A stretch of DNA of 64,000 bases from Maritimibacter fusiformis (lineage in GTDB: Bacteria > Pseudomonadota > Alphaproteobacteria > Rhodobacterales > Rhodobacteraceae). Below, one piece after another: positions 26,664-40,757 of this stretch (its first letter is position 1; every line of letters starts with the position of its first letter). A program made the translations under genes and the position numbers. The DNA is taken from assembly GCF_008086115.1 (NCBI RefSeq), contig NZ_VSIY01000006.1, positions 186,001-250,000 on the forward strand, in the 5' to 3' direction. The notes under the pieces were generated by a model that did not search any database, was not told where the DNA came from, and saw nothing but the letters and a program-made list of their open reading frames with translations.

Positions 26664-27026
26664 CTAGTCGATCTCGCCCGCAGGCGCCTGTTTCGGAACC
26701 GAACAGAACATTTCGTAGATCACTTCGAGGATGCGCCGGGGCCGGTCGTCGGCGAGCGAATAATAGATCGCCTTGCCGTCGCGCCGGGGCGTCACCAGCC
26801 CTTCCAGCCGGAGCCGGGCCAACTGCTGCGACACTGCCGCCTGGCGGGCGTGAAGCAATTCTTCCAGTTCGGTCACCGATTTCTCGCCGGTGACGAGATG
26901 GCACAGGATCATCAGCCGCCCTTCGTGGCTGATCGCCTTCAAGAGCGCCGAAGCGTCGCAGGCGCTGGCCATCATCTTGTCCATGTCATCTTCCGACATG
27001 TCTTCCCGTATCACGGGCAGGGTCAT
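26664..27026 (-). CDS. soxR: ArsR-family persulfide-responsive repressor (SoxR/SqrR/BigR type)
   Basis: At 120 residues it is a winged-helix ArsR protein. The recognition helix is in ARQAAVSQQLARLRLEGLV, and the wing is RRDGKAIYYSL. Cys42 (MILCHL) and Cys108 (EMFCSV) correspond to the pair that forms a polysulfide bridge in SqrR and BigR; a third cysteine, Cys23, is near the N-terminus. It is expected to repress sox genes until persulfide appears. The soxS gene lies 58 bases upstream on the same strand, and soxV-F genes diverge. Confidence 0.93.
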   Translation of the reverse strand: MTLPVIREDMSEDDMDKMMASACDASALLKAISHEGRLMILCHLVTGEKSVTELEELLHARQAAVSQQLARLRLEGLVTPRRDGKAIYYSLADDRPRRILEVIYEMFCSVPKQAPAGEID

Positions 27027-27056
27027 CCGGTTTCTCCCAACAATTCACTTGTTCGG

Positions 27057-27082
27057 GTCCGTTTCCCTTAGCGGGAACGGAC
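27057..27082 (-). promoter_or_regulatory. Stem-loop between soxS and soxR
   Basis: An inverted repeat, GTCCGTT-T-CCC paired with GGG-AACGGAC and a 5-base loop, fills half of the 58-base gap. There is no T-run. It could reduce or set the soxR level or act as a binding site. Confidence 0.4.
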
Positions 27083-27084
27083 GG

Positions 27085-27522
27085 TCAATTCAATTCGTCG
27101 CCACCGGCCCCGCGGTCGGGGTCATAGTCGGTCTTGGCGGCCAGCATGAGCCCGAGCATGGCCCAGAAGAAATCTTCGCCCGGATAGCCCTCGATCCGGC
27201 CGATCTCGGCGCCATCCTCGACCAGCACGAAGGTCGGAGTATAGACGACCGGTCTGGCGAAGGCGATACCTGACTCGTTCAGTGCGGCTTTTTGCACGCG
27301 CTGCAAGGGCGCAAAGGCGCCCTCCGGGGTCTTGGGGTAAATCGGGCCGAGCGTGGCATTCCACTCGGCGCAATACACGCAGCCGGGTTGTTCGACCATC
27401 ACCAGATCCGCAGCCTGCGCGGTCGCGGCGACAAGCGCAAATGCCCCAGAATGTAGGAGCCGGCGGAGCGAAAAAACATCCAATGGGGTCGAGTCCCTTG
27501 ACCGGTCGCTTGCACGGATCAT
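27085..27522 (-). CDS. soxS: SoxS thioredoxin-like protein
   Basis: The protein is 145 residues from the ATG at 27522. A hydrophobic stretch (LLHSGAFALVAATAQAAD) serves as a signal peptide. The mature part is a thioredoxin fold with the redox motif CVYC in VEQPGCVYCAEW. SoxS in Paracoccus is a periplasmic thioredoxin that keeps Sox components reduced and active. A TTG at 27546 would add eight residues, but no good ribosome site precedes either start. It shares an 82-base divergent promoter region with soxV. Confidence 0.88.
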   Translation of the reverse strand: MIRASDRSRDSTPLDVFSLRRLLHSGAFALVAATAQAADLVMVEQPGCVYCAEWNATLGPIYPKTPEGAFAPLQRVQKAALNESGIAFARPVVYTPTFVLVEDGAEIGRIEGYPGEDFFWAMLGLMLAAKTDYDPDRGAGGDELN

Positions 27523-27525
27523 AAT

Positions 27526-27554
27526 TTGACAATGCGTCAGGATCAAGAATGTTG
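27526..27554 (+). promoter_or_regulatory. Possible soxV promoter with TGAC-N5-GTCA inverted repeat
   Basis: TTGACA at 27526-27531 overlaps an inverted repeat TGAC-AATGC-GTCA (27527-27539). A weak -10 (AATGTT or ATGTTG, 27548-27554) lies 16-17 bases downstream. It is 50 bases before soxV and only 4 bases from the soxS ATG on the other strand. Confidence 0.45.
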
Positions 27555-27604
27555 CGTGAACGCCGGCCGAAACGGCGGAAAAGACAGGGCGCCCGGGAGG
27601 ACGG

Positions 27605-28345
27605 ATGTTCGGTGAAATCTCTTATGGCGGCGCTGCGCTGGCCGGGTTCGTTGCGTTTTTCACGCCCTGCATCCTGCCGATGGTGCCCTTCTACCTGAGC
27701 TACATGGCCGGCATCTCGATGTCCGAACTGCAGGGCGAGGACGAGATCGCGCCCGGGGCGCAGCGCCGGCTGGTCGTGTCAGCGGCGCTCTTCGCGCTCG
27801 GCGTGACCACGATCTTCGCGCTGCTCGGGCTGGGCGCGACGGCGCTGGGGCAGGTCTTTGCCCAGTGGCGCGAGGTGCTGAGTTACGCCGCCGCCGCGAT
27901 CATCTTCGTCTTCGGCCTGCATTTTCTCGGGATCATCCGCATCCCGTTTCTGATGCGCGAGGCGCGGGTGCAGTCGAAAATGGACCCCTCGACCGTGGTC
28001 GGCGCCTACGTGATGGGGCTGGCCTTCGGGTTCGGCTGGACCGCCTGTGTCGGGCCGGTGCTGGCCTCGATCCTGTTCGTCGCCTCGATGAAGGATACGT
28101 TGTGGCAGGGCGGCACGCTGCTGGTCGTGTTCGGGCTGGGCATGACCGCGCCGTTCGTGATCGCGGCGGTGTTCGCCAAGCCGTTCCTGCGCTTCATGGC
28201 GAAGAACCGCAGATACATGCCGGTGGTCGAAAAGGTGCTCGGCGTGATGCTGATCGTCTTTGCCGCCCTGATCGCGACCGGATCGGTCAACGCGATCTCG
28301 AACTGGATGATCGAAACTTTCCCCGTGTTCTCGAACATGGGTTGA
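27605..28345 (+). CDS. soxV: SoxV, CcdA/DsbD-like membrane electron transfer protein
   Basis: The 246-residue protein has six membrane segments. Conserved cysteine motifs TPCILPMVPFY (near residue 22) and GWTACVGPVLAS (near 145) are those of CcdA/DsbD transporters that carry electrons from cytoplasmic thioredoxin to the periplasm. SoxV feeds SoxW and SoxS. It is the first gene of the sox operon, 17 bases before soxW. Confidence 0.95.
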   Translation: MFGEISYGGAALAGFVAFFTPCILPMVPFYLSYMAGISMSELQGEDEIAPGAQRRLVVSAALFALGVTTIFALLGLGATALGQVFAQWREVLSYAAAAIIFVFGLHFLGIIRIPFLMREARVQSKMDPSTVVGAYVMGLAFGFGWTACVGPVLASILFVASMKDTLWQGGTLLVVFGLGMTAPFVIAAVFAKPFLRFMAKNRRYMPVVEKVLGVMLIVFAALIATGSVNAISNWMIETFPVFSNMG

Positions 28346-28362
28346 AACCGGGAGGACGACAG

Positions 28363-28947
28363 ATGCGACATTTCCTTGGCTTCGTGACCGCTTTTCTCAT
28401 GGCGCTGCCCGCAATCGGGGCGACGATGGGCGATGACGGTCTGCACAAGACCGACTACATGCGCGACACTTTCAAGGACATGGCAGAAGACCTTGCCGAG
28501 GCGCGGGCCGAGGGCAAGCGGCTGCTCGTCATGTGGGAGCAGCGCGGCTGCATCTATTGCCGCAAGATGCACGAGGATGTGCTGAGCCGACCGGACATCG
28601 ACGCCTATGTGCGCGACAACTACTTCGTGGTGCAGATGAACCTGTTCGGCGATGTCGAGGTCACCGATTTCGACGGCGAGGCGTTGGCCGAAAAGGACAT
28701 GGCGATGAAATGGGGTGTGATGTTCACGCCGACCCTGATGTTCTTTCCGCCCGAGGTTGACGACGGGGTCAGCGCGCCCGAGGCGGCGGCGGTCACCCTG
28801 CCGGGCGCGTTCGGGGCCGAGACGATGTGGGATCTGCTGGTCTGGGTCAACGAGGAGGGCTACCTGAGCGGCGAGAATTTCCAGAAATACCACGCCCGCA
28901 TGTTCAACGCGCGCCAGGAGGCCAAGGGGGCGGGCACAGGGGACTGA
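28363..28947 (+). CDS. soxW: SoxW periplasmic thioredoxin
   Basis: The protein is 194 residues with a signal peptide (MRHFLGFVTAFLMALPAIGA) and a thioredoxin-like fold with CIYC at 63-66. A shared core, VGDDGLHK-like start, DMAEDLAEA and EVTDFDG, links it to a second paralogue at 33142. SoxW receives electrons from SoxV and may reduce SoxY or other cysteines. The start is preceded by GGGAGGA. Confidence 0.93.
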   Translation: MRHFLGFVTAFLMALPAIGATMGDDGLHKTDYMRDTFKDMAEDLAEARAEGKRLLVMWEQRGCIYCRKMHEDVLSRPDIDAYVRDNYFVVQMNLFGDVEVTDFDGEALAEKDMAMKWGVMFTPTLMFFPPEVDDGVSAPEAAAVTLPGAFGAETMWDLLVWVNEEGYLSGENFQKYHARMFNARQEAKGAGTGD

Positions 28948-29023
28948 CGCGCGCCATGTCTCGGAGAACACTGGTCTTTTCAGATCCGGCGCCAGCGGAA
29001 CTTCGTTTCGATTCACAGTGGTT

Positions 29024-29052
29024 TTGAGAAATATTAATTCAAGTTTCAGAAT
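29024..29052 (+). promoter_or_regulatory. Promoter and operator of soxX
   Basis: TTGAGA (29024-29029), 17 bases and CAGAAT (29047-29052) form a sigma-70-like promoter 73 bases before soxX. A perfect palindrome ATTC-N8-GAAT at 29037-29052 covers the -10. The same palindrome is present at 36492, and it fits the half-site pattern I recall for SqrR/BigR regulators (not verified here). Confidence 0.7.
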
Positions 29053-29124
29053 TTGTTGTTGTCAAAATGTCGCAGCCCCGCTAGCGTCCATGACCACCAA
29101 AAAGAAAAAATTCAGGGAGGAGAC

Positions 29125-29595
29125 ATGAAGCGCAGAGTATTCACGCTCGTGCTGTGGGTTGCGGGGCTGGGGGTCGCGCACGCCGACACCGTTGCCCCGG
29201 GCGATGTCGTCTGGCAGGACGGCACCATCCCGCAATCGCTGACCGGGGTGGCCGGTGATCCGGCCGAGGGCGCCAAGGTGTTGTCGTCGAAATCCATCGG
29301 CAATTGCATCGCCTGCCACGAGGTCACCGCGCTGGCCGACGTGCCGTTTCACGGCGAGGTCGGGCCGTTGCTCGACGGGGCCGGCGACCGCTGGACCGAG
29401 GCCGAGCTGCGCGCCATCCTGGTCAACTCGAAAGAGGTCTTTCCGGACAGCGTGATGCCGTCGTTCTACCGTGTCGACGGCTTCATCCGCCCGGGCAAGG
29501 CCTATACCGGCAAGGCCGCCGACGACACCTTCGGCCCGCTCTTGACCGCCCAGCAGATCGAGGACGCGGTGGCGTTCCTGATGACGCTCGACTGA
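29125..29595 (+). CDS. soxX: SoxX, monoheme c-type cytochrome subunit of SoxAX
   Basis: A 156-residue protein with a signal peptide ending AHA (about 20), a single heme motif CIACH at 61-65 and a later methionine in SVMPSFY that can serve as axial ligand. With SoxA it starts thiosulfate oxidation by linking it to the SoxY cysteine. GGGAGGAG precedes the ATG. Its own promoter lies in the 177-base gap after soxW. Confidence 0.95.
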   Translation: MKRRVFTLVLWVAGLGVAHADTVAPGDVVWQDGTIPQSLTGVAGDPAEGAKVLSSKSIGNCIACHEVTALADVPFHGEVGPLLDGAGDRWTEAELRAILVNSKEVFPDSVMPSFYRVDGFIRPGKAYTGKAADDTFGPLLTAQQIEDAVAFLMTLD

Positions 29596-29630
29596 CGCGC
29601 CTGACACCACCTGAACAACGGGAGACCTAC

Positions 29631-30047
29631 ATGAAACTCACTCGACGTGACGCGCTGGCCATCGGGCTGGGGGCAACCGCGGTGGCGATGCTGCCGCTGC
29701 GCGCGACTGCCGCGGCGGAAGAAAAGATCGCGGAATTCACCGGCGGGGCCGAGATCGGGACCGGCGACATCACGCTGGAGGCGCCCGAGATCGCCGAGAA
29801 CGGCAACACCGTGCCGATCGGCGTCTCCGCCCCGGGCGCCGAGGCGATCCTGATCCTGGCCACCGGCAACCCGTCGCCGCCGGTCGCGACCTTCAATTTC
29901 GGTCCCGCCGCCGGGTCGCAGACCGCCGCGACCCGCATTCGCCTGGCCGGCACCCAGGATGTGCTGGCCATCGCGCGCATGGCCGATGGCAGCTTCATCC
30001 AGACCAGCGCCACCATCAAAGTCACCATCGGCGGCTGCGGCGGCTGA
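29631..30047 (+). CDS. soxY: SoxY, sulfur-carrier subunit of SoxYZ
   Basis: The protein is 138 residues and carries a Tat signal (MKLTRRDALAIGLGATAVAM). It ends with the flexible carrier motif GGCGG, whose cysteine (C136) holds the sulfur intermediates. The body is the SoxY immunoglobulin-like domain. It lies 35 bases after soxX and 28 bases before soxZ. Confidence 0.97.
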   Translation: MKLTRRDALAIGLGATAVAMLPLRATAAAEEKIAEFTGGAEIGTGDITLEAPEIAENGNTVPIGVSAPGAEAILILATGNPSPPVATFNFGPAAGSQTAATRIRLAGTQDVLAIARMADGSFIQTSATIKVTIGGCGG

Positions 30048-30075
30048 GCGGCACCCGGAAAAAGGAGAAGAAAAC

Positions 30076-30405
30076 ATGGCATCTGGTGTGAAACCCCGGG
30101 TCAAGGCCCCGAAATCCGCCGCCGCTGGCGAGGTCGTCACGCTCAAGACCCTGATCAGTCACCCGATGGAGTCGGGCCTGCGCAAGGACGGCGACGGCAA
30201 CGTGATCCCGCGTTCGATCATCAACCGCTTCGTCTGCGCGTTGAACGGCGAAACCGTGGTCGACGTGAAGATGGAGCCGGCGATCTCGACGAACCCGTAT
30301 TTCGAATTCGAAGCCAGGGTCGATGCGAGCGGCGAGTTCAGCTTCACCTGGTATGACGACGACGGCTCGGTCTACGAGGCGTCAAGCCCGATCACCGTCG
30401 GGTGA
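30076..30405 (+). CDS. soxZ: SoxZ, partner subunit of SoxYZ
   Basis: A 109-residue protein without signal peptide, co-exported with SoxY through the Tat pathway. It contains VVTLKTLISHPMESGLRKDGDGN and FSFTWYDDDGSVYEA, which are family hallmarks. An AAAGGAG site lies 9 bases ahead of the ATG. Confidence 0.97.
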   Translation: MASGVKPRVKAPKSAAAGEVVTLKTLISHPMESGLRKDGDGNVIPRSIINRFVCALNGETVVDVKMEPAISTNPYFEFEARVDASGEFSFTWYDDDGSVYEASSPITVG

Positions 30406-30430
30406 TCCGGGCACAGGGAGGAAAAACAAC

Positions 30431-31285
30431 ATGAAAGCGAACACGCTTCACTTCGCGGCGCTCGGATTCGCCGCTGCGCTCGCGGCTGCGCCGGCGCTGG
30501 CGGACGAGAACGCCGAACTGATCATCAACGGCGAGATCGAGATCGTCACCCGCACCGCCGCCCCGGCGCATCTTGACGGGGCCTTCGACGAGATCCTGTC
30601 GGGCTGGCGCTTTCGCAGCGACGAGACCCAATCGATGGAAATGGACGATTTCGACAACCCCGGGATGATCTGGGTCGACGCGGCCCGCGAGGTCTGGGCG
30701 ACGCCCGACGGCAGCGAGGGCAAGGCCTGCGCCGATTGCCACGGCGCGCCCGAGGACATGGCCGGGGTCCGGCCGGTCTATCCGAAATGGAACGAGACCG
30801 CGGGCGAAGTCTTCACCCTCCAGATGATGATGAACGACTGCCGGGTGAACCGGATGGGCGCCGAGCCCTGGGGCACCGACAAGGGCCAGTCGATCCCGAT
30901 GGAGGCGCTTCTGGCCTCGGTGTCGCGCGGGATGCCGATGGACGTGGCGATCGACGGACCCGCCGCCGAAACCTGGGAAATGGGGCGCGAGCTTTACTAC
31001 ACCCGGTTCGGCCAGCTCGAATTGAGCTGCGCGTCCTGTCACGAGGACAATTACGGCAACATGATCCGCGCCGACCACCTCAGCCAGGGCCAGACCAACG
31101 GCTTTCCGACCTACCGGCTGAAGAACACCAAGCTGAACGGGGTCCACAGCCGCTTCAAGGGCTGCGTGCGCGACACCAGGGCCGAGACCTTCAACCCGGG
31201 CAGCCCGGAATTCGTGGCGCTCGAGCTTTATGTCGCGAGCCGGGGCAACGGGCTGTCGGTCGAAGGACCGTCGGTGCGCAACTGA
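30431..31285 (+). CDS. soxA: SoxA, diheme c-type cytochrome subunit of SoxAX
   Basis: At 284 residues it has a signal peptide ending ALA (about 24) and two heme motifs, CADCH at 100-104 and CASCH at 200-204, so it is the diheme form found in Rhodobacterales. The catalytic cysteine that carries a cysteine persulfide axial ligand is C245 in FKGCVRDTRAE. It catalyses formation of the SoxY-thiosulfonate. Confidence 0.96.
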   Translation: MKANTLHFAALGFAAALAAAPALADENAELIINGEIEIVTRTAAPAHLDGAFDEILSGWRFRSDETQSMEMDDFDNPGMIWVDAAREVWATPDGSEGKACADCHGAPEDMAGVRPVYPKWNETAGEVFTLQMMMNDCRVNRMGAEPWGTDKGQSIPMEALLASVSRGMPMDVAIDGPAAETWEMGRELYYTRFGQLELSCASCHEDNYGNMIRADHLSQGQTNGFPTYRLKNTKLNGVHSRFKGCVRDTRAETFNPGSPEFVALELYVASRGNGLSVEGPSVRN

Positions 31286-31381
31286 CGGGGATCGGGCCGG
31301 CGCTGCCGGCCCGACCGGAGCGGGGGCCAGCCCCCCGGCCCCCCCGGAGTATTTTCACCAAGATGAAGGGCACGGGCTGCG
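31286..31381 (+). other. Short intergenic element between soxA and soxB
   Basis: A GGCCGG-CGCTG-CCGGCC hairpin is followed by the GC-rich stretch GGCCCCCCCGGAGTATTTTC. The final GGAGTATTTTCACCAAGATGAAGG stretch resembles a short sequence I have often seen between genes of Rhodobacterales. It may act as a partial terminator. soxB has only a weak ribosome site (GGGC). Confidence 0.4.
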
Positions 31382-33079
31382 ATGATCTCACGGCGTGATT
31401 TTCTGCAGGTTTCGATGGCGGCCTCGGCGCTGGTCGGGGCTTCGGGTTTCGGCAACTGGGCGCGGCTGGCGGCGCAACAGCGGCTGACCCAGGACGATCT
31501 GCTCGGGTTCGACACCTTCGGCAACGTCTCGCTGATCCATGTCACCGACATCCATGCCCAGATGGTGCCGATCCATTTCCGCGAGCCTTCGATCAACATC
31601 GGGGTCGGCGCCGCGAAGGGCAAGGTGCCGCATCTGACCGGCGCGGATTTCCGGGCGCGGTATGGCATCGAGGACGGCTCGGCCTCGGCCTATGCGCTGA
31701 CGCATGACGATTTTTCGGCGCTGGCGCAAAGCTATGGCCGGGTCGGGGGGCTCGACCGGGTGGCCACCGTGGTCAAGGCGATCCGGGCCGAGCGGCCCGA
31801 TGCGCTCCTGCTCGATGGCGGCGACACCTGGCATGGCTCCTACACCTGTCACCACACGGCGGGGCAGGACATGGTCAACGTGATGAACGCGTTGAAACCC
31901 GACGCCATGACCTTTCACTGGGAATTCACGCTGGGCAGCGCGCGGGTGGCCGAGATCGTCGAGGGTCTGCCCTTCGCCGCCCTGGGCCAGAACATTTTCG
32001 ATGCCGAGTGGGACGAGCCGGCGGAGCTGTTCAAGCCTTACGAATTCTATGAGCGGGGCGGCGTGAACATCGCGGTGATCGGGCAGGCGTTCCCCTATAT
32101 GCCGATTGCCAACCCGGGCTGGATGTTCCCCGAATACTCGTTCGGCATCCGCGATGCGCATATGCAGCAGATGGTCGACGAGGTGCGCGCCAAGGGGGCC
32201 GACCTGGTGGTCTGCCTCAGCCACAACGGCTTTGACGTGGATCGCAAGATGGCCGGGCAGGTCAAGGGCATCGACGTGATCCTGTCGGGCCATACCCATG
32301 ACGCGCTGCCCGAGCCGGTGCTGGTGGGCGAGACGCTGATCGTCGCCTCGGGGTCGAACGGCAAGTTCGTCGCCCGCGTCGACCTGGATGTGCGCGACGG
32401 GCGGATGATGGGCTTTCGCCACAAGCTGATCCCGGTATTTTCCGACGTGATCGCGCCCGACCCGGAGGTCGCGGCGGCGATCGAGGCGGAACGCGCGCCC
32501 TATCTGGATGATCTGACCGAGGTGATCGGCCGGACCGACAGCCTGCTGTTCCGGCGCGGCAATTTCAACGGCTCCTGGGACGACCTGATCTGCGACGCGC
32601 TGATCTCGGAGCGCGATGCCGAGATCGCGCTGAGCCCGGGCGTGCGCTGGGGGCCGTCGCTTCTGCCGGGGGCGGACATCACCCGCGAGGATATCTGGAA
32701 CGTCACCTCGATGAGCTACGGACAGGCTTACCGCACGGAAATGACGGGGGAATTCCTCAAGGTGGTGCTGGAGGACGTGGCCGACAACCTGTTCAATCCC
32801 GACCCCTACTACCAGCAGGGCGGCGACATGGTGCGGGTCGGCGGCCTTGGCTACCGGATCGACATCGCAAAGCCGCAGGGCGAGCGGATTTCCGAAATGG
32901 TGCTGTTGTCGAGCGGCGAGGCGATCGACCCGGGCCAGAGCTATGTCGTTGCCGGCTGGGCCAGCGTCAACGAGGGCACCGAGGGCCCGCCGATCTGGGA
33001 CGTGGTCGAGGACCATGTGCGCCGGCTGGGCACCGTCACGGTGGCGCCGAACACCTCGGTCGAGGTGGCGGGCGCCTGA
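31382..33079 (+). CDS. soxB: SoxB, dimanganese thiosulfohydrolase
   Basis: The protein is 565 residues. A Tat motif SRRDFL opens the signal peptide. The 5'-nucleotidase-like metallophosphoesterase domain has VTDIHAQ near 57, LDGGDTWHG near 144, LSHNGFD near 279 and LSGHTHDA near 302, then the C-terminal nucleotidase domain. SoxB hydrolyses sulfate from the SoxY-bound intermediate. It is preceded by the soxA element and followed 62 bases later by a second SoxW-like gene rather than soxC. Confidence 0.97.
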   Translation: MISRRDFLQVSMAASALVGASGFGNWARLAAQQRLTQDDLLGFDTFGNVSLIHVTDIHAQMVPIHFREPSINIGVGAAKGKVPHLTGADFRARYGIEDGSASAYALTHDDFSALAQSYGRVGGLDRVATVVKAIRAERPDALLLDGGDTWHGSYTCHHTAGQDMVNVMNALKPDAMTFHWEFTLGSARVAEIVEGLPFAALGQNIFDAEWDEPAELFKPYEFYERGGVNIAVIGQAFPYMPIANPGWMFPEYSFGIRDAHMQQMVDEVRAKGADLVVCLSHNGFDVDRKMAGQVKGIDVILSGHTHDALPEPVLVGETLIVASGSNGKFVARVDLDVRDGRMMGFRHKLIPVFSDVIAPDPEVAAAIEAERAPYLDDLTEVIGRTDSLLFRRGNFNGSWDDLICDALISERDAEIALSPGVRWGPSLLPGADITREDIWNVTSMSYGQAYRTEMTGEFLKVVLEDVADNLFNPDPYYQQGGDMVRVGGLGYRIDIAKPQGERISEMVLLSSGEAIDPGQSYVVAGWASVNEGTEGPPIWDVVEDHVRRLGTVTVAPNTSVEVAGA

Positions 33080-33141
33080 GCCTCGCCCGGATGTGAAGCG
33101 GTGCAGGGCGCGACTGTGCTATCCTGCGCCAAAGGGAGGAC

Positions 33142-33741
33142 ATGATGACCGCAATCGTTCGCATCGCGCTGGCGCTGGCGTTGTTCGCCGCGCCCGGTTT
33201 CGCCGCCGAGGTCGGTGATGACGGGCTGCACAAACAACCCTTCCTCGCCGACACATTCCTCGACATGGCCGAGGATCTGGCCGAGGCCAACGCGGCGGGC
33301 AAGGATCTGCTGGTGCTGGTCGAACAACGCGGCTGTCCCTATTGCGCCGAGATGCACAACGTCAATTTCGCCCGCGAGGACATCGTGACGGCGATCGAGG
33401 ACAATTACCTCGTGGTGCAGCTCGATATGTGGGGGTCGCGCGAGGTGACCGATTTCGACGGGCGCGTCATGCCGGAAAAGGACTTCGTGCGCAGCCTCGG
33501 GGCCAGTTTCACCCCGACCACGCTGTTTTTCACCATGGGCGACGGCGAGGCGCCGCCGACGGATGCGCTCGACGCGCTGGTGTTCGTGCTGCCGGGCTAT
33601 TTCAAGCCGTTCCACCACCTTGCCGCGCTCGACTACGTGTCCAGCGACGGCTACCGCGACGAGCCGAATTTCCAGCGCTGGTTGCAGGCCCGCGCCGACC
33701 GGATGCGCGAGGAGGGTCAGGAGGTCGAGATATGGCAATGA
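33142..33741 (+). CDS. Second SoxW-like periplasmic thioredoxin
   Basis: This 199-residue protein has a signal peptide (ending GFA) and a redox motif CPYC at 65-68. It shares with SoxW (28363) the VGDDGLHK start, DMAEDLAEA and EVTDFDG, so it arose by duplication or is a close paralogue. It sits in the position where soxC and soxD occur in complete clusters. It could reduce SoxY or mature another component. The CxxC differs (CPYC against CIYC), which can change redox potential. Confidence 0.85.
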   Translation: MMTAIVRIALALALFAAPGFAAEVGDDGLHKQPFLADTFLDMAEDLAEANAAGKDLLVLVEQRGCPYCAEMHNVNFAREDIVTAIEDNYLVVQLDMWGSREVTDFDGRVMPEKDFVRSLGASFTPTTLFFTMGDGEAPPTDALDALVFVLPGYFKPFHHLAALDYVSSDGYRDEPNFQRWLQARADRMREEGQEVEIWQ

Positions 33742-33861
33742 TGCAGGCGCCGCAATAATGTTGCACCTGCAGCAAAAGATGAATGTCATTTGTGACAAAT
33801 TCCGAAACCAATACGTATGAATATTATTGTCGGAACGATCCCATTCGGCTAGTCTTGAGCC
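33742..33861 (+). promoter_or_regulatory. AT-rich promoter region before soxE
   Basis: A 120-base, notably AT-rich gap. A -35-like TGACAA (33794-33799) and a TATGAA/TATTAT block (33817-33829) precede soxE by about 35 bases. An inverted repeat TTGC-N7-GCAA around a CTGCAG core lies near 33761-33775. A separate soxE promoter is plausible. Confidence 0.4.
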
Positions 33862-34572
33862 ATGACAAGACCCGGACCCGTTGTTTTCGCCGCCTTTTAT
33901 CTCGCGCTGGTCGCCCCCGCCGCCGGGCAGAGCGGCTTTGGTGACGCCGAAGCGGGCGCCAAGGTGTTCCGCAAATGCTTTTCCTGCCACATGGTCGGCC
34001 CGGACGCGTTCAACCGGGTCGGGCCGCATCTCAATGGCATCTTCGGGCGGCGTGCCGGTTCGCTCGAGGGGTTCAAGCGGTATTCCGACGGCTTGAAACG
34101 GATGGGCGCCGATGGCTTGTTCTGGGATTTCGACGCGCTCGGGGCCTATATCGAGAACCCCAAGGCGTTCGCGTCGGACACGCGGATGAACTTCGACGGG
34201 CTCGACGACCCCCAAGAGCGGGCCGATGTGCTGGCCTATCTGCGGCAATTCTCGGCCAGCCCGGCCAACATCCCCGAGGCGGCGCCGACCGCGATGCCGC
34301 GCGAAGTCGAACTCAGCGAAGACATCCTCGCTTTGCAGGGCGACAAGGATTATGGTGAATATCTGTCAAGCGAGTGCACGACCTGTCACCAGTTGGACGG
34401 CGACGACCAGGGCATTCCGGCGATCATCGGCTGGCCGAGCGAGGATTTCGTCGTCGCAATGCACGCCTACAAGGAAAAAGTGCGACCGCACCCCGTCATG
34501 CAGATGATGGCAGGGCGGCTGTCGAACGAGGAGATCGCGGCGCTGGCCGCGTATTTCGAGGGCCTCGAGTGA
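33862..34572 (+). CDS. soxE: SoxE, diheme cytochrome c
   Basis: The 236-residue protein has a signal peptide and two c-type heme sites, CFSCH at 39-43 and CTTCH at 172-176, each in a class I cytochrome domain. It is the electron acceptor partner of the SoxF flavoprotein, together equivalent to flavocytochrome c sulfide dehydrogenase. It lies 40 bases before soxF, and the pair form one unit. SoxD also has two hemes but carries them differently; the direct link to soxF supports SoxE. Confidence 0.9.
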   Translation: MTRPGPVVFAAFYLALVAPAAGQSGFGDAEAGAKVFRKCFSCHMVGPDAFNRVGPHLNGIFGRRAGSLEGFKRYSDGLKRMGADGLFWDFDALGAYIENPKAFASDTRMNFDGLDDPQERADVLAYLRQFSASPANIPEAAPTAMPREVELSEDILALQGDKDYGEYLSSECTTCHQLDGDDQGIPAIIGWPSEDFVVAMHAYKEKVRPHPVMQMMAGRLSNEEIAALAAYFEGLE

Positions 34573-34612
34573 GGCGAAGCCCGGTCCGAGAAACCACGGG
34601 AGGAATAACAAC

Positions 34613-35887
34613 ATGAAACTGAACAGACGCCATTTCATGGCCGCGTCCGCGGGGGTTGCCGCGACGACGCTGGCCGCACCACACGTCTATGCCGCCAGCC
34701 ACGGCGGCAAGCCCAAGGTGGTGGTCATCGGCGGCGGCGCCGGCGGTGCCACGGCGGCGCGCTATATCGCCAAGGATGCGGATGGCGCGATCGACGTCAC
34801 CCTGGTCGAACCGACGCGCACCTACTACACCTGCTTTTTCTCGAACCTCTACATCGGCGGATTCCGCACGATCGAAAGCCTGGCGCATTCCTACGGCACC
34901 CTGGCCTCGGAATACGGCATCAACGTGATCCACGACTATGCCGTCGGGGTCGACCGCGATGCCAAGACCGTGACACTGGCCGGCGGTGACACGCTGCCCT
35001 ATGACCGGCTGATCCTGTCGCCCGGCATCGACTTTGTCGACGGATCGGTGCCCGGCTGGGACGTGACCAAGCAGAACGCCATGCCGCACGCCTACAAGGC
35101 CGGCTCGCAGACCGAACTGCTCAAGGCCCAGATCGAGGCGATGCCCGAGGGCGGGCTGTTCGCGATGGTGGCGCCGCCCAACCCCTACCGCTGCCCGCCG
35201 GGGCCGTATGAGCGGGTGTCGATGGTGGCGCACCTGCTGCGCGACATCAATCCGACGGCGAAGATCCTGATCATCGACCCGAAAGAGAAGTTCTCCAAGC
35301 AGGGGCTGTTCGAGGAGGGGTGGAACAACAACTATCCCGGCATGGTCGAGCGGATCGGGCCCGACTTCGGCGGCAACAACGTCTCGGTCAATGCCGACGA
35401 AATGACGGTGGATATCGACGGCAGCGTCGAAAAGGTCGATGTCTGCAACGTCATCCCGGCGATGAAGGCGGGGATCATCTGCGAGGCCGCCGGCATCAAC
35501 GACGGCAACTGGGCGCCGGTGTCGCCGCACACGATGCAAAGCCGGGCGGACGAGAACATCTATGTTCTCGGCGATGCCTCGGCGCAGGGCGACATGCCGA
35601 AATCGGGCTTCTCGGCCAACAGCCAGGCCAAGGTTGCGGCGATGTCGGTGCGCGCGGCGCTGACCGATTCCAAGATGTTCCCGGCCAAGTACTCGAACAC
35701 CTGCTGGTCGCTGATCGATACCGACAACGGCGTCAAGGTCGGCGCGTCCTACGAGGCGACCGACGAAAAGATCGCCTCGGTCGAGAGCTTCATCAGCCAG
35801 CCCGGCGAGGATGCGGCGCTGCGCAAGCAGACCTACGAGGAAAGCATCGGCTGGTACGAGGGGATTTCGGCCGACATCTTCGGCTGA
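34613..35887 (+). CDS. soxF: SoxF, flavoprotein of flavocytochrome c sulfide dehydrogenase
   Basis: A 424-residue FAD protein with a Tat signal (MKLNRRHFMAASAG). The dinucleotide fold GGGAGG lies at 40-45. C74 (TYYTCFFSN) fits the covalent FAD attachment residue. C194 (NPYRCPPGP) and C364 (SNTCWSL) are the redox disulfide pair that oxidises sulfide to sulfur. In Paracoccus SoxF raises thiosulfate-oxidising activity. A strong terminator follows. Confidence 0.95.
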   Translation: MKLNRRHFMAASAGVAATTLAAPHVYAASHGGKPKVVVIGGGAGGATAARYIAKDADGAIDVTLVEPTRTYYTCFFSNLYIGGFRTIESLAHSYGTLASEYGINVIHDYAVGVDRDAKTVTLAGGDTLPYDRLILSPGIDFVDGSVPGWDVTKQNAMPHAYKAGSQTELLKAQIEAMPEGGLFAMVAPPNPYRCPPGPYERVSMVAHLLRDINPTAKILIIDPKEKFSKQGLFEEGWNNNYPGMVERIGPDFGGNNVSVNADEMTVDIDGSVEKVDVCNVIPAMKAGIICEAAGINDGNWAPVSPHTMQSRADENIYVLGDASAQGDMPKSGFSANSQAKVAAMSVRAALTDSKMFPAKYSNTCWSLIDTDNGVKVGASYEATDEKIASVESFISQPGEDAALRKQTYEESIGWYEGISADIFG

Positions 35888-35909
35888 ACACCCCATTGAC
35901 CTCGATCAT

Positions 35910-35942
35910 GGCAGGGCCCGCGCGGCCCTGCCATTTTCGTTT
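35910..35942 (+). terminator. Rho-independent terminator after soxF
   Basis: A 9-bp perfect stem (GGCAGGGCC with GGCCCTGCC, 35910-35918 and 35924-35932) and a 5-base loop are followed by ATTTTCGTTT. It lies 22 bases after the soxF stop, and the DUF302 gene starts another 22 bases on, so some read-through is likely. Confidence 0.88.
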
Positions 35943-35963
35943 CGGACCATCACAGGAGGACAG

Positions 35964-36416
35964 ATGATGCGCACCTTGATCCTGGGCACCGCACTGGCGC
36001 TTGCCACCGTGACCGGCGCCCTCGCCAACGGCCCCTCGGGCGGGCAGGCGACCACCTATGCCTACGACGGCAGCTTTGAAGACGCGACCTTCGCCGTGGA
36101 AAACGCCATCATCGGCAAGGGGCTGGTGATCGACTATGTCAGCCACACCGGCGACATGCTCAACCGCACCGGCGTCGATGTCGGCTCGGGCGCGACCATC
36201 TTCGAGGCGGCGGACATCTACCTGTTCTGCTCGGCCGTCCTCAGCCGCAAGGTGATGGAGGCCGACCCGATGAACATCGCCCATTGCCCCTATGGCATCT
36301 TCGTCACCGAGGCCGACGGTGAGGTCGCGGTCGGCTATCGCAATCTGCCCGAAGGCCCGATGCAGGAGGTCGAGGCGCTGCTCGACGAGATCGCGCGCGC
36401 GGCCACGGGCATGTAG
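35964..36416 (+). CDS. Periplasmic DUF302 domain protein
   Basis: This 150-residue protein has a signal peptide (MMRTLILGTALALATVTGALA) and a DUF302 body, including DATFAVENAIIGKGLVIDYVSHTGDML, ADIYLFCSAVLSRKVMEADPMNIAHCPYGIFV and ending in an acidic helix. Two cysteines lie near 90 and 107. DUF302 proteins occur next to sulfur and metal genes, but their role is unknown. AGGAGGA precedes the ATG. Its link with the Sox region is positional. Confidence 0.82.
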   Translation: MMRTLILGTALALATVTGALANGPSGGQATTYAYDGSFEDATFAVENAIIGKGLVIDYVSHTGDMLNRTGVDVGSGATIFEAADIYLFCSAVLSRKVMEADPMNIAHCPYGIFVTEADGEVAVGYRNLPEGPMQEVEALLDEIARAATGM

Positions 36417-36444
36417 CGCGCATCAGGCGACCGCGGCCCATACG

Positions 36445-36471
36445 GCCCCGTCCGGTTGACCCGGGCGGGGC
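36445..36471 (+). terminator. Possible terminator stem after the DUF302 gene
   Basis: An 11-bp stem with one T-G pair (GCCCCGTCCGG with CCGGGCGGGGC) closes a TTGAC loop, 28 bases after the stop codon. No T-run follows, so function as a terminator is uncertain. Confidence 0.4.
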
Positions 36472-36491
36472 GGTGGTGCCGATCACAACAA

Positions 36492-36507
36492 ATTCATTTA
36501 TCTGAAT
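36492..36507 (+). promoter_or_regulatory. Perfect ATTC-N8-GAAT palindrome, candidate SoxR/SqrR operator
   Basis: ATTC-ATTTATCT-GAAT lies 76 bases before the first permease gene. It has the same outer half-sites and spacing as the palindrome at 29037-29052 in the soxX promoter. This suggests that both units answer to the ArsR-type SoxR. Confidence 0.68.
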
Positions 36508-36582
36508 ACACGGTTGCATCCGCCGGCGGGCGTATGCAAGCTGGCCTTGCGAACAGACATATCTTGAGTGAGGCAAGAACAG

Positions 36583-37017
36583 ATGATCGAAACGACGTTC
36601 ACACCGGTGAGCGCCGCAGTTGGTGGCGCTATGATCGGGTTGGGGGCCGTGCTGCTGATGGCGCTGCGCGGCAATGTATTCGGCGCGACCGGCATCCTGG
36701 CCGGCGTCATGTCGCCGTCGTCCTCGGGCGAGTGGGCCTGGCGGGCGGTGCTGATGGCGGGCATGATCTCGGGTCCGGTGGCGGTATTCGCCGTAACCGG
36801 GCAGATGCCGGCGATCGAGGTGCCGGTGTCGACCTGGATGCTGGTGGTCGGCGGGCTGATCGTCGGGGCAGGGGTGACCTACGGGTCAGGCTGCACCTCG
36901 GGCCACGGCATCTGCGGGCTGGCGCGCCTGTCGCCGCGCTCGATCGTGGCGACGGCGACGTTCATGGCATCGACGGCGGCCACGGTCTTCGTGATCCGCC
37001 ACGTGATCGGAGGCTGA
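36583..37017 (+). CDS. YeeE/YedE half-size membrane protein (PmpA-like)
   Basis: The protein is 144 residues with four membrane segments and the signature [20 protein letters not shown]. The cysteine in GSGCTSG is the conserved sulfur-handling residue of the family. It pairs with the next gene, 3 bases away; the two halves together equal one TsuA-type transporter. The upstream GTG at 36568 is a weaker start. Genes of this type occur beside persulfide dioxygenase genes in BigR-type operons. Confidence 0.87.
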
Positions 37018-37020
37018 GCC

Positions 37021-37461
37021 ATGCGACTGTTTCTCATCTATCTCGCCGGACTGGGCTTTGGCGTCGGCATTGCGATCAGCGGCATGATGAACCCGGCCAA
37101 GGTGCTGAACTTTTTCGACTTTGCCGGGATCTGGGACCCGACGCTTCTGGTGGTGATGGTCTCGGCGCTGGTGGTGACCGCCATCGGCTACCGGCTGGTG
37201 TTCCGCCGCGAACGGCCGCTGTTCTCGCCCCGTTTCCAGGTGCCGACCAGCCGCACAATCGACGCCAAGCTCGTCGGCGGCGCGGCGGTGTTCGGCATCG
37301 GTTGGGGCATCTCGGGGTTCTGCCCGGGGGCGGCGTTACCGGCGCTTGGCACCGGCGATCCGGCGGTCCTGATCTTTGTCGGGGCCATGATCCTGGGCAT
37401 CCTGCTGGCCCGTGCCGCGATCCAGCGGTCGTGGTTGGCGCGGGTCTTCGCCACGGCGTGA
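37021..37461 (+). CDS. YeeE/YedE half-size membrane protein (PmpB-like)
   Basis: This 146-residue protein with four membrane segments starts [31 protein letters not shown] and has [15 protein letters not shown], the other conserved cysteine motif of the transporter. The gene follows its partner by 3 bases. The substrate is likely a small sulfur anion or sulfane sulfur, by family. Confidence 0.87.
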
Positions 37462-37642
37462 CGCCGGGGGCAGGGGGAATGGGAAACAAATTCAAAAGAT
37501 GGCATATGACCCTTTACTGACCCCCGCCCGCACCCTAGATAAGGGAAAACCCACCCGGCGCACAGGCGCGCCGGGGTCAATCCACCCCGCGCCGCGCGCG
37601 CGTCAGGCCGGATCATCTGCCCGGCAGAAACGGATGCGAGAC

Positions 37643-38542
37643 ATGGAAGACCTTGCGATGCAACTACCCGTCGACCCTTCGATCAAACCCGAGGTCGAAG
37701 CCTTCTTCGACCCGGCCACCAACACGATTTCCTACGTGGTGAAAGACCCCGACAGCAACGCCTGCGCGGTGATCGACAGCGTGATGGACATCGACTATGC
37801 CGCCGGGCGCATCACCTATGAACACGCCGACAAGATCATCAAGCATATCGAGGACAACGGCCTCAAGCTGGAATGGCTGATCGAAACCCATGTCCACGCC
37901 GACCACCTGTCCGCCGCGCCCTATATCCAGCAAAAGCTGGGCGGCAAGATCGGCATCGGCGAGAAGATCACCGTGGTGCAGGACACCTTCGGCAAGGTCT
38001 TCAACGAAGGCACCGAGTTCCAGCGCGACGGCAGCCAGTTCGATCGGCTGTTCAAGGATGGCGATACCTACCGGATCGGCGGCATGGACGTGGTCGCGCT
38101 GCACACGCCCGGCCATACGCCCGCCTGCATGACCCATGTGGTCGGCGATGCGGCCTTTGTCGGGGACACGCTGTTCATGCCCGATGGCGGCTCGGCGCGG
38201 GCCGATTTCCCCGGCGGCGATGCCGGCACGCTCTACGATTCGATCCAGCGCGTGCTGAGCCTGCCCGAGGACACCCGGCTGTTCATGTGCCACGACTACG
38301 GCCCGAACGGACGCGATATCCAGTGGGAAACCACCGTGCGCGAGGAAAAAGAACACAACATCCACGTCGGACGTGGCAAGACCAAGGAGGATTTCGTCAA
38401 GTTCCGCACCGAACGCGACGCGACGCTGGCGATGCCGCGCTTGATCATCCCGTCGCTTCAGGTCAACATGCGCGCCGGTGAAATGCCGCCGGCGGACAAG
38501 GATGGCAAGACCTTCCTCAAGGTGCCGGTGAACACGCTATGA
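37643..38542 (+). CDS. Persulfide dioxygenase (ETHE1/Blh type, MBL fold)
   Basis: A 299-residue metallo-beta-lactamase-fold protein. The iron ligands are in THVHADHLSAA (near 86-95), HTPGHTPACM (near 157), VGDTLF and CHDY (near 216). ETHE1-type enzymes oxidise glutathione persulfide to sulfite. Of the possible ATGs (37634, 37643, 37658) I chose 37643; 37658 has a GGAAGA site and is also plausible. The gene overlaps the next one by ATGA. It is likely controlled with the PmpAB-like genes. Confidence 0.92.
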   Translation: MEDLAMQLPVDPSIKPEVEAFFDPATNTISYVVKDPDSNACAVIDSVMDIDYAAGRITYEHADKIIKHIEDNGLKLEWLIETHVHADHLSAAPYIQQKLGGKIGIGEKITVVQDTFGKVFNEGTEFQRDGSQFDRLFKDGDTYRIGGMDVVALHTPGHTPACMTHVVGDAAFVGDTLFMPDGGSARADFPGGDAGTLYDSIQRVLSLPEDTRLFMCHDYGPNGRDIQWETTVREEKEHNIHVGRGKTKEDFVKFRTERDATLAMPRLIIPSLQVNMRAGEMPPADKDGKTFLKVPVNTL

Positions 38543-38898
38543 AAGGCGCGGCGGTCATGGACTGGAAGGAACTGGACGATCAGGTCACCGTGGCCTGGCA
38601 GATCGGTCCCGAAGACGTGCCCAGGATCGCCGCTGCCGGCTACAAATGCGTGATGTGCAACCGCCCCGATGGCGAAGAGGCCGGCCAGCCCGACTGGGAC
38701 GAGATCGCGGACACCTGCCGCGCCCACGGGATCGAGCCGCGCTATGTGCCGCAAGCCGACCGCAACCCGACGGAATACGCGATCAACGGGTTTGCCAAGG
38801 CGATGGCCGAGACGCCGGGCAAGGTCTTTGCCTTCTGCCGCACCGGCACGCGGTGCGAGATCCTCTATAACGCCGTGAAGGCCCGCAAGGCGGGCTGA
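38539..38898 (+). CDS. TIGR01244/DUF442 sulfurtransferase-phosphatase-like protein
   Basis: This 119-residue protein has a cysteine phosphatase-type loop, CRTGTR, near residue 100. Such domains are fused to or beside ETHE1-like dioxygenases (as in Blh) and act on persulfide. Its start overlaps the dioxygenase stop (ATGA). A second ATG at 38557 (MDWKELDDQV) is a possible start. It is a rhodanese-like partner by inference. Confidence 0.87.
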   Translation: MKGAAVMDWKELDDQVTVAWQIGPEDVPRIAAAGYKCVMCNRPDGEEAGQPDWDEIADTCRAHGIEPRYVPQADRNPTEYAINGFAKAMAETPGKVFAFCRTGTRCEILYNAVKARKAG

Positions 38899-38987: not shown

Positions 38988-40757
38988 ATGGCCCGTTCCG
39001 TTCACCGCCCCGCGACGGGGGCGCTGCGCCGCTATTTGCCCATTCTCGACTGGGGGCGGCAGTATGACCGCAGCGCGCTGACATCCGACAGCGTTGCCGC
39101 GCTGATCGTCACCATCATGCTGATCCCGCAATCGCTGGCCTATGCGCTGCTGGCCGGGTTGCCGCCGGAAATGGGGCTTTACGCCTCGATCCTGCCGCTC
39201 ATCGCCTATGCGATCTTCGGCACGTCGCGGGCCTTGGCCGTGGGGCCGGTGGCGGTGGTGTCGCTCCTGACCGCGGCGGCGGTGGGCAACCTCGCGCTGC
39301 CGGGCACCTCTGACTACATCGTGGCCGCCATCGCGCTGGCGTTCCTGTCCGGGCTGATGCTGTTGGTGATGGGCCTGTTTCGGCTGGGCTTCATCGCGAA
39401 CTTCCTGTCGCACCCGGTGATCGCGGGGTTCATCACAGCCTCGGGCATCATCATCGCGGTGTCGCAGCTCAAACACATCCTCGGGATCGATGCGGGCGGA
39501 CATTCGCTGTTCGCGCTGGCAGGCTCGTTGATCGCCCATCTGGGCGAGACCAACATGATCACCCTGGCAATCGGCGCCAGCGCCACGGCGTTCCTATTCT
39601 GGGTGCGCAAGGGGTTGAAGCCCGCGGTGATCCGGCTGGGCCTTCCTGCGCGCCTCGCCGATCTTCTGGCCAAGGCCGGCCCGGTGATGGCGGTGGTGGC
39701 GACGACGCTGGTGACATGGGGCCTTGGCCTGGCCGAGCGGGGCGTGGCCATCGTCGGCGACGTGCCGTCGGGCCTGCCGCCCCTGACCGTTCCCAGTTTC
39801 GATCTGTCGCTGTGGTCGTCGCTGGCCGGGTCGGCCTTCATCATCTCGATCATCGGCTTCGTCGAGTCGATCTCGGTCGCCCAGACGCTGGCCGCCAAGC
39901 GCCGCCAGCGCATCCAGCCCGATCAGGAGCTTGTGGGCCTTGGCGCCTCCAACATCGCCTCGGCGCTGTCGGGCGGCTTTCCGGTGACCGGCGGCTTCTC
40001 GCGCTCGGTGGTGAACTTCGACGCGGGCGCCGAGACCCCGGCCGCCGGCGCCTTCACCGCCATCGGCATCACGCTCGCGGCCCTGTTCCTGACGCCGCTG
40101 ATCTTCTTTCTGCCCAAGGCGACGCTGGCCGCCACCATCATCGTTGCGGTGCTGAGCCTGGTCGACTTCTCGATCCTCAAGCGCACCTGGGCCTATTCCA
40201 AGGCCGATTTCATCGCCGTCGCCGCCACCATCGCCCTGACGCTGGGGCTGGGGGTCGAGGCCGGGGTGTCGGCGGGCGTGGTCCTGTCGATCCTGCTCTA
40301 TCTCTACAAGACCTCGCGGCCCCACATCGCCGAGGTCGGGTTGGTGCCGGGCACCGAGCATTTCCGCAACATCAACCGCCACGACGTGCTGACCCACCCC
40401 GAGCTGGTGACGCTCCGGCTGGACGAAAACCTCTATTTCGCCAATGCGCGCTATATCGAGGACTATCTGCTCGACCGGATCGGGCGCGGCCAGCCGGTGA
40501 AACACGTGGTGCTGATGTGTTCGGCGGTGAACGTGATCGACCTGTCGGCGCTGGAAAGCCTCGAAGACATCGACCGGCGGCTGGCCGACATGGGCATCAC
40601 CCTGCACCTGTCCGAGGTCAAGGGGCCGGTGATGGACCGCCTCGCGCGCACGCATTTCCTCGGGTCGCTGTCGGGCCAGGTCTTTCTCAGCCAATACCAG
40701 GCGATGCGCGCCCTTGCCCCGGTCGATGACGCGCCCCAGGGGATCGCCGCGCAATAG
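38988..40757 (+). CDS. SulP family inorganic anion transporter with STAS domain
   Basis: The 589-residue protein has about 12 membrane segments (the early SVAALIVTIMLIPQSLAYALLAGLPPEMGLYASILP stretch is the SulP motif), then a C-terminal STAS domain from about 440 (NLYFANARYIEDYLLD, VVLMCSAVNVIDLSALESLEDI). SulP proteins carry sulfate, bicarbonate or other anions. At the end of a sulfur-oxidation region, sulfate or sulfite export is suggested, but not proved. It follows the small sulfurtransferase gene by 89 bases. Confidence 0.93.
   Translation: MARSVHRPATGALRRYLPILDWGRQYDRSALTSDSVAALIVTIMLIPQSLAYALLAGLPPEMGLYASILPLIAYAIFGTSRALAVGPVAVVSLLTAAAVGNLALPGTSDYIVAAIALAFLSGLMLLVMGLFRLGFIANFLSHPVIAGFITASGIIIAVSQLKHILGIDAGGHSLFALAGSLIAHLGETNMITLAIGASATAFLFWVRKGLKPAVIRLGLPARLADLLAKAGPVMAVVATTLVTWGLGLAERGVAIVGDVPSGLPPLTVPSFDLSLWSSLAGSAFIISIIGFVESISVAQTLAAKRRQRIQPDQELVGLGASNIASALSGGFPVTGGFSRSVVNFDAGAETPAAGAFTAIGITLAALFLTPLIFFLPKATLAATIIVAVLSLVDFSILKRTWAYSKADFIAVAATIALTLGLGVEAGVSAGVVLSILLYLYKTSRPHIAEVGLVPGTEHFRNINRHDVLTHPELVTLRLDENLYFANARYIEDYLLDRIGRGQPVKHVVLMCSAVNVIDLSALESLEDIDRRLADMGITLHLSEVKGPVMDRLARTHFLGSLSGQVFLSQYQAMRALAPVDDAPQGIAAQ

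Follow-up and report, generated by a model that had tools for sequence, protein, structure and literature searches.

The 64,000-nucleotide stretch analysed here (the window) lies on contig C14 of the Maritimibacter fusiformis assembly (G000; 3.51 Mb, 17 contigs, 94.8% complete) and carries a cluster of sox genes for thiosulfate oxidation in which soxC and soxD are missing. The genome as a whole indicates that the truncated Sox system is very probably coupled to a reverse dissimilatory sulfite reductase (rDsr), which is encoded on contig C7. At the window locus soxCD has been lost cleanly, and similar losses happened more than once in rDsr-carrying members of the family Rhodobacteraceae. The persulfide dioxygenase (PDO) and the PmpAB half permeases encoded downstream of soxF probably form a side or detoxification route.

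The soxCD gap and the dsr genes of the same genome

The genes soxRS-VWXYZAB-W2-E-F are intact, in frame and located where the initial annotation had placed them, apart from soxR and soxS, which were absent from its list and lie at the left edge of the cluster, divergent from the remaining sox genes. The set soxXYZAB of a truncated Sox system is complete, and SoxX, SoxY, SoxZ, SoxA and SoxB each exceed their NCBIfam cut-offs. SoxV, SoxW, SoxW2 and SoxS were named from their position and CxxC motifs; their profile matches are to general thiol-redox families.

The reported loss of soxCD from this locus was confirmed, with soxB and soxW2 only 62 bp apart. The genome-wide check for soxC, which had been proposed together with that report, was carried out and revealed no SoxC above the cut-off in G000. 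The sole match of the SoxC model TIGR04555 reached 27.7 bits against a cut-off of 420 and was rejected as a hidden SoxC, as it reads by eye as MsrP; SoxD was not searched genome-wide. For comparison, the loci of the best 80 named SoxB relatives listed (L labels) were probed by tblastn using the genes of the window and SoxC and SoxD from locus L072. The SoxB of the window is 75-85% identical to these relatives, and the nearest of them are Rhodobacteraceae. In 76 of the 80 loci soxB is directly followed by soxC among the matched genes, and soxD was matched in 75; the loci without soxC are L036, L043, L046 and L057. The succession soxB, W2, DUF302, PDO and sulfurtransferase recurs in L036, with soxE and soxF in between, and in L122 of genome G069, there without soxE and soxF. 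An assembly accident is an unlikely cause of the arrangement, because these two other genomes show it as well. The soxCD gap is real: the usual site is covered and empty, though the assembly may lack about 5% of the genome.

Searches for families that handle sulfur in the cytoplasm (YeeE, TusA) led to a region of contig C7 of G000, which was read from position 146000 to 185999 and contains dsrABEFHCMKLJOPN. The gene order is cysG, dsrA, B, E, F, H, C, M, K, L, J, O, P, N, tusA and dsrE2 (both on the opposite strand), an ArsR-type regulator, a Soe-like molybdoenzyme set, an Mrp-type ATPase and a full-length YeeE. All members of the rDsr gene set (dsrAB, dsrEFH, dsrC, dsrMKJOP, dsrL and dsrN) are present. 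DsrA (561.2 bits, cut-off 392.85), DsrB (508.6 bits, cut-off 341.5), DsrE, DsrF, DsrH, DsrC and DsrK exceed their family cut-offs, DsrM lies below its cut-off, and DsrL scores above the threshold set for a general NAD(P)-binding subfamily. The DsrP-type, DsrN-type, TusA and DsrE2 genes carry the expected Pfam domains; DsrL, DsrP and DsrN were assigned by general domains and position, and DsrJ (three CxxCH motifs) and the DsrO frame were identified by eye. DsrC, with 110 residues, has the two conserved C-terminal cysteines at positions 98 and 109. The molybdoenzyme set consists of a molybdenum subunit, an iron-sulfur subunit and a DmsC-type anchor according to Pfam, and is called Soe-like by its position and subunits.

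The sHdr system was considered as a different cytoplasmic sink, and its HdrB-like genes were looked for. A search of G000 with the CCG domain (PF02754) matched a 437-amino-acid frame with two domains, a 467-amino-acid frame and DsrK, which is the weakest of the four matches, and no HdrB pair was found.

A full-length YeeE of the dsr-linked type is present in all five soxCD-less dsr carriers of the family survey described below. It adjoins the dsr genes in G000, G064, G087 and G110; in G069 it adjoins mrp, which also neighbours YeeE in the dsr cluster of G000 itself. Two further arrangements were seen during these comparisons. On contig C12 of G000 (L139, 238000-254000) a second TusA-like gene, with 31% identity to the dsr-linked one, lies beside a YeeE-family transporter gene that is split into two frames. 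In G169, which keeps SoxC, the dsr genes run into the sox genes (L187-L188, G169:C6:66000-93673) in the order dsrN, tusA, dsrE2, arsR, yeeE, soxT-like, soxR, soxS, soxV, soxW up to the contig end.

As the initial annotation rightly pointed out, organisms without soxCD have to handle or store sulfane sulfur. In the pathway that we propose, SoxXA would bind thiosulfate to SoxYZ in the periplasm and SoxB would free the sulfone as sulfate, so that without SoxCD the sulfane sulfur would remain on SoxY. A full-length YeeE/SoxT transporter (sox-linked, dsr-linked or both) would most likely carry it inward to TusA and DsrE2, from where it would be handed to DsrEFH and DsrC and be oxidised by rDsrAB together with DsrMKJOP and DsrL. 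The resulting sulfite would be oxidised by the Soe-like complex, and surplus sulfur may be kept as globules. PmpAB, PDO, the sulfurtransferase and SulP would provide an additional minor route or act as a safety valve for persulfide, without standing in for SoxCD. The direction of this flux and the transporter that carries it are predicted from the gene content and the positions of the genes.

Recurrent loss of soxCD in the Rhodobacteraceae

The family survey comprised 198 genomes (G labels), in which G000 is the sole genome of its own genus. Counted above the family cut-offs, SoxB is present in 127 genomes, SoxC in 122 and DsrA in 16. The presence and absence sets were compiled from the SoxB, SoxC, PDO and DsrA tables, and their sizes match the tallies of the SoxB, SoxC and DsrA searches. 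SoxB above the cut-off without SoxC was found in G000, G054, G064, G087, G110 and G156; two more genomes, G069 and G160, lack SoxC and have an incomplete soxB. G156 and G160 were left out of the comparison, as their contigs stop at or within soxB; G069 was counted as soxCD-less, its soxB being cut by a contig end and its right flank being readable.

Of the six genomes with a readable soxCD loss, five carry dsrA (G000, G064, G069, G087 and G110, not G054), compared with nine of the 121 genomes having both SoxB and SoxC. A Fisher test of this table (5/9 vs 1/112) gave p of about 4e-5 with kinship ignored, and p of about 3e-4 when G156 and G160 were counted as soxCD-less. Also outside the table are G077, with SoxC and no SoxB, and G012 and G019, whose DsrA is above the cut-off and which have no SoxB above it. 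Among the named loci, dsrA was tested in the genomes of 61 of the 80 (all except L006 and 18 others) and exceeded the cut-off in three of them, L036, L057 and L029, which corresponds to two of the four soxCD-less loci and one of the 57 others. The two samples overlap: by their dsrA coordinates, G110 is the same genome as L057 and G005 the same as L029.

The soxCD-less dsr carriers show three forms of the cluster, soxB-W2-E-F (the window and L036), soxB-W2 without soxE and soxF (G069), and soxB-E-F with no W2 in the cluster (G064, G087 and G110). In the DsrA tree the last three fall into a supported group (98/99) mixed with soxCD-bearing genomes, and G000, L036 and G069 stand apart. This topology implies a minimum of two losses, provided that soxCD was never regained and that dsr was passed on together with the rest of the genome. 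In the SoxB tree the combination of missing soxCD and present dsr needs four changes, three of which are forced by supported branches, with the caveat that sox genes can be transferred and that some branches are weak.

SoxW2 belongs to a paralogue family distinct from SoxW (tree split 100/100). Genes of the W2 type lie behind soxD in the soxCD-bearing clusters L074, G070 and G109, and W2 is therefore not a product of soxCD loss. In the tree of SoxW and SoxW2 sequences, the W2 of the window groups with that of L036 (90/77, branch not starred), with G069 nearby, and the SoxW of the window groups with that of G069 (98/95). The row L129_W of this tree duplicates the W2 gene of G109, and L044 contributes no SoxW row. 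Unlike these groupings, the SoxB tree separates the window from L036 and G069, which bears on a shared origin of the soxB-W2 arrangement.

Several results weigh against the coupling to rDsr. Soe-specific models gave no match to the Soe-like molybdoenzyme, and the oxidative type of DsrAB is suggested by the accompanying DsrEFH and DsrL, not by a reference tree. A kinship-aware test with independent pairs (5 pairs, supported branches) gave a median p of 0.25, which is not significant, the pairs being too few; on average 2.7 pairs differed in the same way, 0.1 in the opposite way and 2.2 showed no difference. Nine dsr carriers keep soxC, and rDsr consequently does not force the loss of soxCD. Conversely, the loss is possible without rDsr, because in L043 and L046 neither soxCD nor soxE or soxF was matched behind soxB, and dsrA gave no match there either. 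G054, where the stretch read matched only soxY, soxZ and soxB, lacks both soxCD and dsrA as well. Taken together, rDsr is associated with the loss of soxCD and is neither necessary nor sufficient for it. The loci L043 and L046 come from a Lentibacter and a Roseobacter metagenome-assembled genome (MAG), respectively; both have the order soxVWXYZAB, and their SoxB proteins are 96% identical to each other.

The PDO module and competing explanations

The two half permeases, the ETHE1-type dioxygenase and the small sulfurtransferase that had been described downstream of the sox genes were recovered by profile matches, and the motifs of PDO and of the half permeases are intact. A DUF302 gene missing from the earlier list separates soxF from the half permeases; relatives of it occur in 38 of the 80 named sox loci, both with and without soxCD. 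The Blh model NF040641 (cut-off 625) matches two separate genes of the module with 391.6 and 63.1 bits, and no fused bifunctional Blh was found.

In the family survey PDO was counted at E 1e-40 and found in 180 of the 198 genomes. It is equally common with soxC (115/121) and without soxCD (5/6) and was rejected as a marker of soxCD loss. Within the fetched stretches of the 80 named loci a PDO gene is present in four, the soxCD-less L036 as well as L039, L044 and L059. The complete module is found near intact soxCD in L044, and all or part of it in L039, L059 and the loci L130-L133 (genomes G168, G060, G197 and G191), which were chosen because PDO adjoined sox. Because all or part of the module adjoins soxCD-bearing clusters, it is not a mark of soxCD loss. 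PDO and the half permeases are also not retained throughout the five soxCD-less dsr carriers: one (G064) gave no PDO match at this threshold, and for three (G064, G069 and G087) no short half-permease match (PF04143) is listed. G110 has a pair of short frames on contig C66. The stretch L122 (G069:C62, 1-4066) contains soxB-W2-DUF302-PDO-sulfurtransferase and then a short-chain dehydrogenase-like gene, with soxE, soxF, pmpAB and sulP absent. That G069 keeps PDO and the sulfurtransferase behind soxB-W2-DUF302 may leave room for a supporting role. The short-chain dehydrogenase-like gene resembles by eye the gene behind sulP in the window (40832-41599).

The initial annotation had offered as one reading that the permeases and PDO deal with the sulfane sulfur, which would make them a replacement for SoxCD. 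In the form considered here, PmpAB would import the SoxY-derived sulfane sulfur as glutathione persulfide, PDO would convert it to sulfite, the sulfurtransferase would serve recycling and SulP export. Chemically this is possible. The genes are adjacent, the half permeases carry the cysteines described as essential in YedE1 (position 104) and YedE2 (position 101), and in recombinant E. coli YedE1E2, a pair of the PmpAB type, brings in zero-valent sulfur that PDO then uses (PMC10812762). In Cupriavidus lacking soxCD, transcript levels of pdo, yedE and yeeE rise and PDO consumes sulfane sulfur (PMC9959259), and the order W2-DUF302-PDO-sulfurtransferase has been retained behind soxB in G069 despite the absence of soxE, soxF, pmpAB and sulP there. 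As the main replacement, however, PDO is not supported, because the rDsr genes of G000 are accompanied by tusA and dsrE2, by a Soe-like enzyme and by a YeeE of their own. The module near intact soxCD in the seven loci L044, L039, L059 and L130-L133, the lack of PDO enrichment in soxCD-less genomes and the missing matches in G064, G069 and G087 point in the same direction, and we consider this replacement quite unlikely.

A much stronger competitor, to which we give a little less than an even chance, assigns PDO, PmpAB, the sulfurtransferase and SulP to a Blh-type set for the detoxification of sulfide and persulfide. The set would have no role in thiosulfate oxidation and would lie near sox through shared sulfur stress, an explanation that is compatible with the coupling to rDsr. 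PDO and the sulfurtransferase each correspond to one part of Blh, sulfide oxidation by the bigR operon is reported from plant bacteria (PMC5823870), and both the occurrence of the block near intact soxCD clusters and the wide distribution of PDO in the family fit such a function. Less easily accommodated is its position behind a soxCD-less sox cluster in three genomes (the window, L036 and G069), a repeated adjacency that suggests a shared supply of sulfane sulfur. Half-oxidation of thiosulfate, by which the thioredoxins SoxV, SoxW and SoxW2 would release the sulfane sulfur as sulfide or elemental sulfur and SoxF would recapture it, seems very unlikely. A second thioredoxin gene, soxW2, does occupy the soxCD site, SoxV and SoxF are intact, and a Cupriavidus strain with soxCD and pdo deleted releases sulfide (PMC9959259), but W2-type genes accompany intact soxCD in L074, G070 and G109 and are not tied to the loss, and rDsr makes a discharge by thioredoxins unnecessary. 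The coupling of the truncated Sox system to rDsr could also be extended by an order of gain and loss that we infer only tentatively, and the extended form is improbable: soxCD would have become dispensable after the gain of rDsr and been deleted repeatedly, and SoxW2 would here be a dedicated unloader of SoxY that supplies two sinks, rDsr to gain energy and DUF302-PDO-sulfurtransferase to take up the overflow. The remnant behind soxB in G069 would be a trace of this division.

Comparison with known systems and gene inventory

Allochromatium vinosum is known for SoxXYZAB without SoxCD, dsrABEFHCMKLJOPN, TusA-DsrE2 and a Soe-like molybdoenzyme. G000 shares this combination of genes, with a putative Soe-like enzyme, with A. 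vinosum and other sulfur-globule formers. Unlike A. vinosum, it belongs to a family with mostly complete Sox (SoxC in 121 of the 127 genomes with SoxB above the cut-off), and the window retains soxRSVW and soxEF next to the PDO and PmpAB set. The gene order on either side of the gap is identical to that of the complete Rhodobacteraceae cluster soxRS-VWXYZABCDEF, whereas soxW2 stands in place of soxC and soxD. Truncated Sox with rDsr is already known; here it occurs in a family whose members mostly have a complete Sox system.

The role of rDsr in A. vinosum is cited in PMC9959259. A correlation between missing soxCD and present dsrAB was published in 2009 with data not shown (PMC2702494). Truncated Sox with a cytoplasmic system is a standard combination, complete Sox being commoner in Rhodobacteraceae (PMC10451225). 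An incomplete Sox system was counted in 62 of 5013 type-strain species, 21 of the 62 having PDO without DsrAB (PMC9959259); truncated Sox and soe are described for all 75 strains of Thioalkalivibrio, dsr for six of them (PMC6382920); and five biofloc MAGs have both sox and rdsrAB, Arenicellales being named among the rdsr carriers (PMC11494986). A literature search of titles and abstract openings revealed no report of repeated soxCD loss among rDsr-carrying Rhodobacteraceae.

Hyphomicrobium denitrificans, which combines truncated Sox with sHdr and SoxT1A, shares SoxR, SoxS, a SoxT-type transporter and a cytoplasmic end oxidation with the window genome (PMC11582611, PMC10451225), but the cytoplasmic oxidation in the latter would proceed by rDsr, and no HdrB-like gene pair was seen. 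SoxT and PmpAB are both discussed in PMC11582611, which found no evidence that PmpAB takes part in the oxidative sulfur metabolism of Hyphomicrobium. Like the soxCD deletion strain of Cupriavidus pinatubonensis, G000 has PDO and YedE/YeeE available for sulfane sulfur (PMC9959259); that strain is laboratory-made and without rDsr, in contrast to the natural, rDsr-bearing window genome. With the bigR/blh operon and with PmpA-PmpB of Serratia the module shares the sulfurtransferase and dioxygenase parts of Blh and the half permeases, whereas the two Blh parts are separate genes here and the regulator, which sits with soxS, reaches 93.2 bits with the BigR model NF040642 and stays below its cut-off of 155.

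A gap in one gene cluster thus needs to be read against the whole genome, since a known pathway encoded on a different contig can make up for the missing enzyme. Among the Rhodobacteraceae there is a natural series with soxCD only, with soxCD and rDsr (for example Seohaeicola saemankumensis) and with rDsr only (for example Jhaorihella thermophila), which could be used to test how gain and loss followed each other and how the flux is divided between rDsr and PDO.

Table 1. Genes and gap of the sox region and the adjoining PDO module (positions within the window)
Feature	Position	Strand	Evidence
Full-length YeeE/YedE-family transporter, SoxT1-like by position	23118..24185	-	NF041049/NF052577 TsuA matches below cut-off; Cys32, 106, 287, 313
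soxR, ArsR-type repressor	26664..27026	-	NF033788 82.5 bits (cut-off 55); Cys23, 42, 108; position conserved in relatives
soxS, periplasmic thioredoxin-like, CVYC	27085..27522	-	PF13098 20.9 bits, below cut-off; CxxC; synteny
soxV, CcdA/DsbD-type membrane protein	27605..28345	+	DsbD-family matches below cut-off; synteny
soxW, periplasmic thioredoxin, CIYC	28363..28947	+	PF13098 55.8 bits; CxxC
soxX, monoheme cytochrome c	29125..29595	+	TIGR04485 86.2 bits (cut-off 61); one CxxCH
soxY, sulfur carrier, GGCGG tail	29631..30047	+	TIGR04488 142.2 bits (cut-off 125)
soxZ	30076..30405	+	TIGR04490 104.3 bits (cut-off 76)
soxA, diheme cytochrome c	30431..31285	+	TIGR04484 232.7 bits (cut-off 110); two CxxCH
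soxB, thiosulfohydrolase	31382..33079	+	TIGR04486 830.9 bits (cut-off 550)
62-bp gap at the usual soxC/soxD site	33080..33141	+	between soxB and soxW2
soxW2, second periplasmic thioredoxin, CPYC	33142..33741	+	PF13098 54.4 bits; CxxC; family distinct from soxW
soxE, diheme cytochrome c	33862..34572	+	PF00034 and PF13442; two CxxCH
soxF, flavocytochrome c sulfide dehydrogenase flavoprotein	34613..35887	+	PF21706 153.2 bits, PF09242 77.6 bits
DUF302 protein, probably exported	35967..36416	+	PF03625 26.8 bits (cut-off 23)
PmpA/YedE1-type half permease	36583..37017	+	PF04143 33.6 bits (cut-off 27); Cys104
PmpB/YedE2-type half permease	37021..37461	+	PF20398 133.1 bits, PF04143 28.8 bits; Cys101
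PDO, ETHE1/Blh C-terminal type	37634..38542	+	NF040641 391.6 bits over profile 138-423; HVHADH, HTPGHT, GDTLF
TIGR01244 sulfurtransferase, Blh N-terminal type	38557..38898	+	TIGR01244 90.4 bits (cut-off 85.85); CRTGTR
SulP-family anion transporter	38988..40757	+	TIGR00815 458.5 bits (cut-off 380.45)

The full-length SoxT-like yeeE is a further gene missing from the initial list. Its distance from soxR is 2.5 kb in the window, compared with less than 300 bp in 70 of the 72 named loci showing both genes. Between the two lies a gene for a DEAD-box RNA helicase (24067-26526, + strand), whose best match is DbpA with 336.5 bits, below the cut-off of 524.

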